Translations under genes and position numbers: made by a program | The notes under the pieces: generated by a model | Database searches by the model: none | What the model saw: only the letters and a program-made list of their open reading frames with translations | What the model was told of the DNA's origin: nothing | NCBI RefSeq assembly: GCF_025947065.1 | Contig: NZ_CP109994.1 | Coordinates: 3,968,001 to 4,032,000, forward strand | Direction: 5' to 3' | DNA length: 64,000 nucleotides | Origin: Flavobacterium sp. N1736 | Lineage (GTDB): Bacteria > Bacteroidota > Bacteroidia > Flavobacteriales > Flavobacteriaceae | Part shown: positions 61,042 to 64,000 of the stretch, one piece after another | How positions within the stretch are numbered: the first letter of the stretch is position 1 | Layout: the number at the start of each line of letters is the position of its first letter

Positions 61042-61650
61042 ATGGCTTTTGAATTACCACAATTACCTTATGCATATGATGCATTAGAACCACATATTGA
61101 TGCACGTACAATGGAAATTCACCATTCAAAACATCATAATGCATACACAACAAATCTTAATGCAGCAATTGCAGGTACAGATTTGGAAGGAAAAACAATC
61201 GAAAACATCTTAATCAACTTAGATAAATCAAACGCTGCAGTTCGTAACAATGGTGGAGGTTTTTACAACCACAATTTGTTCTGGACTGTAATGACTCCAA
61301 ACGGTGGTGGATTACCAACAGGTGATTTGTTAGCTGCAATTGAGTCTTCTTTTGGAACTTTTGAAGAGTTTAAAGCAAAATTTGCCAAAGCCGGTGCAAC
61401 ACAATTTGGTTCAGGATGGGCTTGGTTATGTGTGCAAAAAGGTGGAAAATTAGATGTTTGCGGAACTCCAAACCAAGACAACCCATTAATGCCGGAAGTT
61501 GGCTGCGGTGGAACTCCAATTTTAGGAATGGATGTTTGGGAGCACGCTTATTATTTAAACTACCAAAACAGAAGACCAGATTATATTGAAGCTTTCTTCA
61601 ACGTAATTAACTGGACAGAAGTTGCAAGAAGATATGCTTTAGAAAAATAG
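61042..61650 (+). CDS. Iron/manganese superoxide dismutase
   Basis: 202 residues. The four metal ligands are visible: His27 (EIHHSKHH), His77 (YNHNLFW), Asp164 and His168 (MDVWEHAYY). FGSGWAWL follows the family pattern. It turns superoxide into peroxide and oxygen in the cytoplasm. Metal choice cannot be read with certainty. A single gene with promoter and terminator. Confidence 0.93.
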
Positions 61651-61791: not shown

Positions 61792-61875
61792 GAGTTTATT
61801 CCAATAAAAAAGGTGAAATTTCTTTCACCCTTTTTGCCCCAAATCTACCATATACTTAACCTACTAATGTTATGG
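61792..61875 (-). ncRNA. Tandem 84-nt element copy 1, candidate small RNA
   Basis: Read on the minus strand: a CCATA/TATGG stem around TTAGTAGGTTAAG, a GGGGC box, then a GGTGAAA-GAAA-TTTCACC hairpin and six T's. A CAAATATT box (minus AATATTTG) lies at 61909-61916, 33 nt upstream. Identical to copy 2 over all 84 nt. Confidence 0.5.
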
Positions 61876-61975
61876 TGTAATAAATTTATGACAGCTATTT
61901 TGTTTTGCCAAATATTTTAGACGAAATGCAAGAATAATCGATGAAATGCGTAATTTCTTACTTTAGAAAGGTTTT

Positions 61976-62059
61976 GAGTTTATTCCAATAAAAAAGGTGA
62001 AATTTCTTTCACCCTTTTTGCCCCAAATCTACCATATACTTAACCTACTAATGTTATGG
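61976..62059 (-). ncRNA. Tandem 84-nt element copy 2, candidate small RNA
   Basis: Identical to copy 1 over 84 nt while the sequence between units has diverged. The promoter-like AATATTTG (minus) is at 62093-62100, again 33 nt upstream. Confidence 0.5.
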
Positions 62060-62161
62060 TATAGTAAATGTATGATAGCTATATCGTTTTCACAAATATT
62101 CTAGATAAAGTGCAAATAAATTCGACGAAATACGTAATTTCTTACTTTGGGTGGTTTTCTT

Positions 62162-62245
62162 GAGTTTATTCCAATAAAAAAGGTGGAATTGCTTCCACCC
62201 TTTTTGCCCCAAATCTACCATAAACTTAACCTACTAATGTTATGG
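62162..62245 (-). ncRNA. Tandem 84-nt element copy 3, candidate small RNA
   Basis: It differs from the others at four positions. Two of these (62186 A to G, 62195 T to C) are opposite each other in the hairpin stem and keep pairing. A third is in the hairpin loop. A TATGTTTG box (minus) is at 62279-62286, 33 nt upstream, matching TAnnTTTG. Confidence 0.5.
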
Positions 62246-62346
62246 TTTCCCAAAAGTATCGTAGCTGTTCGATTTTGCCAAACATATAGGACGAACGGCA
62301 AAAAAAACCGATAAACTGCACAATTTAACCTTTTGTTAGTATTTTT

Positions 62347-64000
62347 TTAATATGCTCTTGCATCTTTTCCTTCATAAAAATTCATGAATGCTCTATTTAC
62401 AACACGATTTCCTCCCGGTGTAGGATAGTCTCCTGTAAAATACCAATCACCAAGATTTTTAGGACATGCTATATGTAAATCTTCTACTTTTTGGAAAATA
62501 ATTTTTACCTCGGCATTAATTTCCGGAGAACTCAACATTTCGGCAATTTTGTCTGAAATTTCTTCAGGAGTAAATTGATCATAAATTGCGGTTACATAAT
62601 TTACAACATCTGTATCAATATAATTTTCCTGAGCTTTACATTTAGCATAAACTTCATCTACGATATGGTATAGGTTTCTTTCTTTCAACAAAGCCAAAGC
62701 TGCTCTAAAAGCAACAAGACCTTCCAGTTTTGCCATATCAATTCCGTAACAATCAGGGTAACGAATTTGTGGAGCCGAAGAAACGATAACGATACGTTTT
62801 GGTTTTAAACGATCCATCATTTTAATGATGCTCATTTTTAAAGTAGTTCCACGAACAATACTGTCATCAATAATAACTAAATTATCAGTTGGTTTGATAA
62901 CTCCATAAGTTACATCATAAACGTGAGCAACTAAATCATCACGACTACTGTCTTCTGTAATAAAGGTTCTTAGTTTAGCATCTTTTATTGCAACTTTTTC
63001 AGTACGAATTTTTACAGCTAATAATTCCTGTAAAGTTTCGGCTGTAAGTGTATTTCTGTTTTCCAGAATATAATTATTTTTTCTCTGATTTAAGAAATCC
63101 TGTGCAGCTTCGATTAGACCATAAAAGGAAGTTTCGGCAGTGTTAGGAATATAAGAGAAAACAGTATTGTCTGTATCGCTGTCAATTGATTTAAGAACGG
63201 CTGGTAAAATTAATTTTCCTAAATTTTTACGTTCCTGATAAATTTCAGCATCACTTCCTCTGGAGAAATAGATTCTTTCAAAAGAACACGCTTTTTTAAC
63301 GGTTGGTTCCAGAATTTGTTCCATCGAAACTTTTCCGCTTTTTTTGATGATCAAAGCATTTCCGGGTTCAATTTCCTGAACTTTTTCAAAAGGAACATTA
63401 AATACCGTTTGAATAACCGGACGCTCAGAGGCAACAACTACAACTTCATCATCCTGATAAAAATAAGCAGGACGAATTCCAGCGGGATCTCTAAATACAA
63501 AAGCATCACCGTGACCTAATAATCCGGCCATTGCATAACCTCCATCAAGATTTTTTGCTGAGCGGGATAATATTTTTGTGATATCCAATCGTTCTGCAAT
63601 TACCGGAGAAGCTTCTCTTTTAGAATAACCTTCCATTTTACAATCCTGGTAAAGCTGCATAACTTCCTTGTCAAGAAAATGCCCAATCTTTTCCATTACG
63701 GTAACAGTGTCGGCCATTTCTTTTGGATGCTGTCCAAGCTCTACTAAGTTTTCGAAAAGCTCTTTAACATTTGTCATATTAAAGTTTCCTGCCAAAATCA
63801 AATTACGGTGCATCCAGTTACTTTGACGTAAAAATGGGTGAACACTTTCGATGCTGTTTTTTCCGAAAGTTCCGTAACGAACGTGACCTAAAAATAATTC
63901 TCCTATATAAGGAATGTTTGCTTTTTGAGCTGCAACATCATCTGCATATTCCGGATGAGCACCTAACTCTTCATTAATACGATCATTAATTTGGGCAAAA
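62347..64000 (-). CDS. purF: Amidophosphoribosyltransferase (partial, N-terminus outside window)
   Basis: About 551 residues are visible; the frame stays open to the window edge, through FLGHVRYGTFG and HPFLRQSNWMHRNL of the glutaminase domain. The catalytic N-terminal Cys lies beyond 64,000. The later IIDDSIVRGTTLKMS is the PRPP-binding loop. It makes phosphoribosylamine, the first step of purine synthesis. The end FTGDYPTPGGNRVVNRAFMN and the long form fit Bacteroidota enzymes. No clear terminator of its own follows the stop; the first is in 84-nt copy 3. Confidence 0.93.
   Translation of the reverse strand, partial: FAQINDRINEELGAHPEYADDVAAQKANIPYIGELFLGHVRYGTFGKNSIESVHPFLRQSNWMHRNLILAGNFNMTNVKELFENLVELGQHPKEMADTVTVMEKIGHFLDKEVMQLYQDCKMEGYSKREASPVIAERLDITKILSRSAKNLDGGYAMAGLLGHGDAFVFRDPAGIRPAYFYQDDEVVVVASERPVIQTVFNVPFEKVQEIEPGNALIIKKSGKVSMEQILEPTVKKACSFERIYFSRGSDAEIYQERKNLGKLILPAVLKSIDSDTDNTVFSYIPNTAETSFYGLIEAAQDFLNQRKNNYILENRNTLTAETLQELLAVKIRTEKVAIKDAKLRTFITEDSSRDDLVAHVYDVTYGVIKPTDNLVIIDDSIVRGTTLKMSIIKMMDRLKPKRIVIVSSAPQIRYPDCYGIDMAKLEGLVAFRAALALLKERNLYHIVDEVYAKCKAQENYIDTDVVNYVTAIYDQFTPEEISDKIAEMLSSPEINAEVKIIFQKVEDLHIACPKNLGDWYFTGDYPTPGGNRVVNRAFMNFYEGKDARAY

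Follow-up and report, generated by a model that had tools for sequence, protein, structure and literature searches.

What are the three closely similar units that lie in tandem on the minus strand, between a PurF-like gene and sodA, in the 64,000-nt stretch of Flavobacterium sp. N1736 DNA analysed here (the window)? A first-pass annotation, made from the letters alone, had described them as small-RNA-like. Here we present a description of the units, their relatives and their complements, on the basis of which they are read, with a probability of about 0.8, as genes of a trans-acting base-pairing sRNA family of Flavobacteriaceae that carries two seeds and would repress translation of envelope-protein mRNAs.

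Each unit is composed of a Bacteroidetes-type promoter and a predicted RNA of ~73 nt, in which a hairpin with a 13-nt loop is followed by a single-stranded linker and a covarying terminator (Table 1). The spacing of 184 and 186 nt given in the first-pass annotation for a threefold 84-nt element was reproduced. It had also stated that copies 1 and 2 are identical and that the stretch between them has diverged; counted from the predicted +1, the two copies agree over 85 nt, with a mismatch already at the base just before +1 and an identity of 77.5% over the 80 nt that precede it. Between copy 3 and copy 1 there are four mismatches in 84 positions (62223, 62195, 62191 and 62186), and the A-T to G-C change that had been noticed at 62186 and 62195 is indeed compensatory, preserving what is now assigned as the terminator stem. 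In the array of another locus (L022) the third unit is decayed, its loop, linker and terminator all being altered; copies seem to arise and disappear within the array.

Table 1. Position of the sRNA units, their parts and their neighbours (coordinates of the window)
Feature	Position	Strand	Basis
sRNA copy 1, predicted transcript of 73 nt, +1 = 61876	61804..61876	-	repeat, fold, covariance model 98.4 bits
sRNA copy 2, predicted transcript, +1 = 62060	61988..62060	-	85 nt same as copy 1; covariance model 98.4 bits
sRNA copy 3, predicted transcript, +1 = 62246	62174..62246	-	covariance model 103 bits; compensatory pair 62186/62195
Loop seed AGTAGGTTAA	copy 3 62226..62235; copy 1 61856-61865; copy 2 62040-62049	-	invariant in 32 copies; exact complement enriched at start codons
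Linker seed AGATTTGGGGC	copy 3 62206..62216; copy 1 61836-61846; copy 2 62020-62030	-	conserved, single-stranded; complement in CAP start regions and near loop sites
Terminator hairpin and T run, copy 3	62175..62205	-	7/13 pairs changed on both sides (32 copies); fold
Terminator hairpin, copy 1	61805..61835	-	fold
Terminator hairpin, copy 2	61989..62019	-	fold
-7 box	copy 3 TACTTTTG 62251..62258; copy 2 TACATTTA 62065-62072; copy 1 TAAATTTA 61881-61888	-	TAnnTTHR fit in genus
TTTG of the -33 region	copy 3 62279..62282; copy 2 62093-62096; copy 1 61909-61912	-	
Proximal upstream repeat GCCGTTCGTCC	copy 3 62289..62299; copy 2 62103-62113; copy 1 61919-61929	-	genus TTYRTC at -49
Distal upstream repeat GCAGTTTATCG	copy 3 62309..62319; copy 2 62123-62133; copy 1 61939-61949	-	genus TTYRTC at -69
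PurF-like amidotransferase gene, upstream neighbour, cut by window end	62347..63999	-	NCBIfam purF 102.9 bits, below cut-off 350; conserved neighbour
Superoxide dismutase gene (sodA), convergent neighbour	61042..61650	+	Pfam Sod_Fe_N and Sod_Fe_C; conserved neighbour

The fold z-scores of the three units were -2.99, -3.43 and -3.77 (200 dinucleotide shuffles each), in keeping with the hairpin and T run that had been seen to end each unit on the minus strand. An alignment of 32 copies from the genus and from other genera showed changes on both sides in seven of the 13 terminator pairs, i.e., the structure-preserving changes in homologues on which the first-pass annotation had staked its reading. 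Helix 1 was paired in 98.4% of the cells of this alignment, with variation only to G-U or unpaired; the loop AGTAGGTTAAG, earlier called exposed and constant, was invariant in all 32 copies, and the linker was nearly invariant. Two hairpins are predicted per RNA, with the first loop and the linker as the candidate pairing parts, and a longer transcript is possible. By inspection, the conserved body holds no ATG-started frame of note.

When copy 3 and its upstream stretch were used as a DNA query, 210 of 249 genomes of the genus were matched, with one to five matches per positive genome, a result that was used to exclude chance for the array. The covariance-model search in Flavobacteriaceae that had been proposed was carried out with a model built from 20 genus copies (threshold E 0.01 or better), and gave matches in 246 of 299 genomes, representing 199 of 236 genera (84%), with one to seven matches per positive genome; the figure of 246 is slightly high, as the best E lies above 1e-5 in seven of these genomes. 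In at least one of the seven, G378, the weak match (L225) was rejected as not being the RNA. With looser filters, five family genomes that had been scored as lacking the RNA gave nothing better than E 0.026. The model passed in 40 of 196 genomes of the order and in 23 of 247 of the class, outside the family only at E 4e-5 to 0.01; three of these outside matches (L212, L213 and L214) were read and look like gene ends with ordinary terminators, and no convincing match outside Flavobacteriaceae was found in the order and class sets.

The usual location of the RNA is between the purF-like gene and sodA. Regarding the 203 loci with the core motif, a set that overlaps internally and counts some loci more than once, the PurF-like gene was present in 190, sodA in 171, both in 167 and neither in nine. 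The stretches of four copies from other genera (L045, L053, L056 and L058) hold neither gene. This location and the family-wide spread, like the linker seed and the upstream direct repeats described below, go beyond what the first-pass annotation had recorded. They bear on the reading of the array as a DNA repeat or mobile element rather than as transcribed RNA genes, for which the tandem arrangement and the identical copies could be cited; this reading is very improbable indeed, given a location mostly fixed across the family, a promoter and a terminator in every unit, and an identity of copies 1 and 2 that begins exactly at the predicted +1. By sequence, each unit has the make-up of a free-standing sRNA gene with its own promoter and terminator.

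The predicted +1 is the first A of ACCATAAC, as placed from the position of the sigma-A boxes of F. psychrophilum, which lie at -12 to -5 according to the part of PMC9723704 that was available. The motif TAnnTTHR occurs at -12 to -5 in 232 of 236 distinct upstream regions of the genus and in 60 of 77 of other genera, and TTTG stands at -36 to -33 in all three window units, which bears out the earlier statement that a TTTG-ending box lies exactly 33 nt upstream of each. Identity with Rfp11 was rejected, the accessible description of Rfp11 giving an ECF-type SM6 promoter and the present units having sigma-A-type boxes.

The unit reaches further upstream than had been seen: each of the three units of the window has two direct repeats with a period of 20 nt, at about -72 and -52. 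Among the 236 genus upstream regions, TTYRTC is found at -49 in 176 and at -69 in 129. A pair of half-sites 20-22 nt apart was detected in 97 of 243 genus upstream regions and in 24 of 122 from other genera; the corresponding maxima among 50 shuffles were two and zero. The AlgR consensus CCGTTCGTC is present in the proximal repeat of copy 3, and the purF-adjoining copy carries CCGTTCATC, which equals the AlgR site of rhlI, in 27 of 30 loci (consensus and site from the available part of PMC4064291). LytTR direct repeats are mostly 12 bp apart, in a minority 11 or 13, and are situated just upstream of -35 (PMC6193735, in the portion at hand). Two direct repeats just upstream of -35, sought as a LytTR-type arrangement of 11-13 bp, were counted as present in three of three copies, their period being 20 nt. 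The likeness to LytTR and AlgR sites consists of direct repeats upstream of -35 together with AlgR-type motifs and is one of resemblance only; the period of 20 nt sets this sRNA array apart. The repeats look like a LytTR-type activator site, and the units are perhaps controlled by an activator of that type.

All occurrences of the exact loop complement and of the linker complement were searched for in the window genome. The loop complement occurs seven times, three times in the sRNA genes and four times elsewhere; two of these four begin 14 nt before a gene-opening ATG, namely those of a LysM protein (L227) and an M48-like peptidase (L230). The linker complement occurs five times, three of them self, and one of the other two also begins 14 nt before an ATG (L238). 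The same genome has 21 occurrences of the loop complement with its letters reversed, as against the seven (three self) of the true one, which hints at avoidance of off-target sites.

The genus set comprised 61 genomes with 143 rows, of which 23 were dropped by a regular expression as the RNA's own antisense (two of them, G035:C16 and G014:C27, may not be) and 120 were kept, all mapped; the gene start was taken as the first ATG opening 60 or more codons. Gene starts numbered 27 at 0-29 nt downstream of the 120 sites, vs. ~0.8 per 10-nt bin in the other bins up to 300 nt. A start codon follows the loop complement TTAACCTACT at a distance of 0-18 nt at 24 of the 120 genus sites, two of which (L281 and L294) belong to short ORFs that may be spurious, and at 14 of 126 sites in other genera (59 genomes), vs. 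two of 150 cases, among the matches listed, for the dinucleotide-matched control TTAACTACCT (Fisher p 1e-7 for the genus, 5e-4 for other genera; the genomes share ancestry and the counts are not independent). Control and family rows were evaluated only where an ATG fell inside 21 nt and were picked by eye; a recount showed that four of 38 such control rows and two of 51 such family rows had been left out. One of the two family rows runs straight into a stop and the other was counted as no hit; taking all four control rows as hits gives 6/150 among the matches listed, with p 3e-5 for the genus and 0.02 for other genera. With each protein family counted once, after a collapse to 16 families by hand, the figures were 16/112 vs. 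2/150 (p 4e-5) or vs. 6/150 (p 0.003), again for the control matches listed. The first-pass annotation had suggested that the loop could pair with target RNAs and that complements near start codons be sought; such complements are enriched there, and together with the recurrent CAP mRNA described below they favour pairing.

The linker complement accompanies 17 of 38 start-region loop sites and three of 96 other sites, and the reversed linker motif three of 38 and one of 96, respectively. Among the genes with a start-region site are those of CAP lipoproteins, of a membrane histidine kinase (in five species) and of M48, L,D-transpeptidase and DUF1287 proteins; the conserved, exposed seed of the RNA has complementary sites at translation starts. 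In the histidine kinase of five Flavobacterium genomes (L269-L273), TTAACCTACTAAT, a 13-nt complement of the genus loop, ends 12 nt before the ATG, and four of the five leaders have CCCCAAA or CCCAAA ~50 nt further upstream; this site may provide feedback on envelope signalling. In two genomes the loop complement is placed 22-24 nt before the start codon of gldN of type IX secretion (L322 and L358, the former Pfam-confirmed). The leader of a 71-aa ORF (L282, L326) shows near-complementarity to the sRNA all the way from loop through stem to linker, and may represent either a strong target or what is left of an antisense sRNA copy.

CAP-domain (PF00188) lipoproteins have a loop site in four independent places (G040/G048, G019, G290 and G257). 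A protein search found CAP homologues in 57 of 80 family genomes, and 50 CAP leaders were taken by protein homology only, 42 from RNA-bearing genomes and eight from two genomes without the RNA; a seed match was defined as 7 nt or more, and 433 other start regions served as background. Regarding the 42 leaders, a loop match was present in 27, a linker match in 31, either in 38 and both in 20. The corresponding numbers were 0, 2, 2 and 0 for the eight leaders without the RNA, and 45, 21, 64 and 2 for the 433 background regions. Many CAP leaders read like CCAAATCTAaatttACCTACTTATG, whose first block would pair with the linker and whose second block, which includes the start codon, would pair with the loop. 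Leaders L514, L522, L531 and L534 (4/42) have neither match, and the sole match of L528 is inside the coding region. A different CAP leader, with GCCCCAAATTTGATG and then a C run, was observed in five genera (L525, L527, L530, L532 and L533) and matches mainly the linker.

The mean duplex energy was -24.4 kcal/mol for 55 CAP regions, a set in which five leaders detected through their seed and the eight of RNA-less genomes are counted, vs. -16.0 kcal/mol for the 433 others; it was -24.6 kcal/mol for the 42 leaders alone and -17.2 kcal/mol for the eight. Compared with their own shuffles, 27 of the 55 regions had z below -2 (mean -2.04). The CAP leader of the window genome (L485) pairs at -31.2 kcal/mol and is without the full loop complement. 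Of the genomes with the RNA, 55 of 63 have the CAP gene, vs. two of 17 of those without it; this co-loss may reflect genome reduction. The CAP leaders of the various genera have a common origin, and other causes could lie behind their conservation.

Rsm/CsrB-type RNAs titrate an RNA-binding protein. The present RNA, being multicopy and having an invariant loop on a stem, might likewise serve mainly to titrate such a protein, with the loop as the protein site, and the paralogous FopS sRNAs of Bacteroides do bind RbpB (PMC11697453, available in part). We regard this as improbable, since it leaves unexplained both the start-codon enrichment of the exact complement over the dinucleotide-matched control and the linker complement in CAP leaders.

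According to the preferred reading, that of a base-pairing sRNA, each unit would be transcribed separately from its sigma-A-type promoter, which is preceded by the two LytTR-like direct repeats, as far as its own terminator. In the ~73-nt RNA the hairpin loop CAUwAGUAGGUUAA and the linker AGAUUUGGGGC would be exposed as two fixed seeds and would pair with mRNAs over their short 5' leader and start codon, the CAP-domain lipoprotein being the best supported target and other secreted and envelope proteins further candidates. Such pairing would block initiation of translation, and tandem copies with their own promoters would raise the dosage. The block is proposed because the pairing covers the short leader and the start codon, as in the case of the FopS sRNAs, which block initiation at SusC mRNAs in Bacteroides (PMC11697453, part available). 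That the same pairing should result mainly in activation or mRNA processing is unlikely: deletion of rfp18 did lower two predicted target mRNAs in F. psychrophilum (accessible part of PMC9723704), but the present sites either stop 0-18 nt short of the start codon or take it in, and pairing at such positions as a rule prevents initiation.

A wider reading is put forward tentatively, at slightly less than even odds, in which the RNA is the core post-transcriptional regulator of the envelope in Flavobacteriaceae, a hub of ancient origin that is tuned by dosage and controlled by a LytTR-type sensor. With its two separate seeds it would clamp the start codon and the entire short leader in the mRNA of an ancestral partner, the CAP lipoprotein, with which it would be gained and lost together, and further envelope mRNAs (histidine kinase, LysM, L,D-transpeptidase and GldN) would have been recruited lineage by lineage.

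As for known RNAs, no Rfam 15 family was matched at gathering score by the window array and six homologous loci, in line with the earlier remark that no known family was recognised. The best sub-threshold match, HrrF (28.1 bits vs. 77), as well as STnc40 and FopS (RF04319; 16.9 bits vs. a cut-off of 56), were read as chance matches resting largely on the terminator. Literature searches in the main text of articles found no description of this RNA as such; it may be the same as one of the transcripts (the Rfp set) that have been mapped in F. psychrophilum. Rfp18 of that species is similar in being an sRNA widely conserved in Flavobacterium with predicted pairing to secreted-protein mRNAs, and it differs, in the available part of its description (PMC9723704), by having at least three stem-loops, of which the third pairs, and metalloproteases and an adhesin as predicted targets. 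That the present RNA is Rfp18 is rather unlikely, with two hairpins predicted here and one metallopeptidase (L230, M48-like) among 13 Pfam-scanned hit proteins.

In the literature examined, part of it available as excerpts, no flavobacterial sRNA other than Rfp18 has targets that were put to the test. The present RNA, which occurs in 84% of the genera sampled from the family, brings a concrete candidate target along with two defined seeds and a putative activator site, and its alignment is ready material for an RNA-family model. Flavobacterial leaders are without Shine-Dalgarno sequences (PMC9723704, in the part available), and the RNA offers a case for how pairing may work with short leaders of this kind.

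One close parallel is FopS/GibS of Bacteroides thetaiotaomicron (Rfam RF04319), which are paralogous sRNAs of ~65-70 nt, in the case of FopS with canonical sigma-ABfr promoters that resemble those of the present units, and which pair with initiation regions of envelope-protein mRNAs (available part of PMC11697453). The FopS copies are at many loci and their seed is in the 5' part, whereas the copies described here are in tandem, mostly at one locus, with the hairpin loop and the linker as seeds and with other targets. By model score the RNA is outside FopS and any Rfam 15 family, and its mode of action would be that of the envelope-directed multicopy sRNAs known from other bacteria. Among these, LhrC1-5 of Listeria monocytogenes are multicopy, partly tandem and two-component-controlled, and repress mRNAs of envelope lipoproteins through base pairing at their ribosome-binding sites; the sRNA array of the window is like them in its multicopy tandem design and differs in phylum, sequence and seeds.
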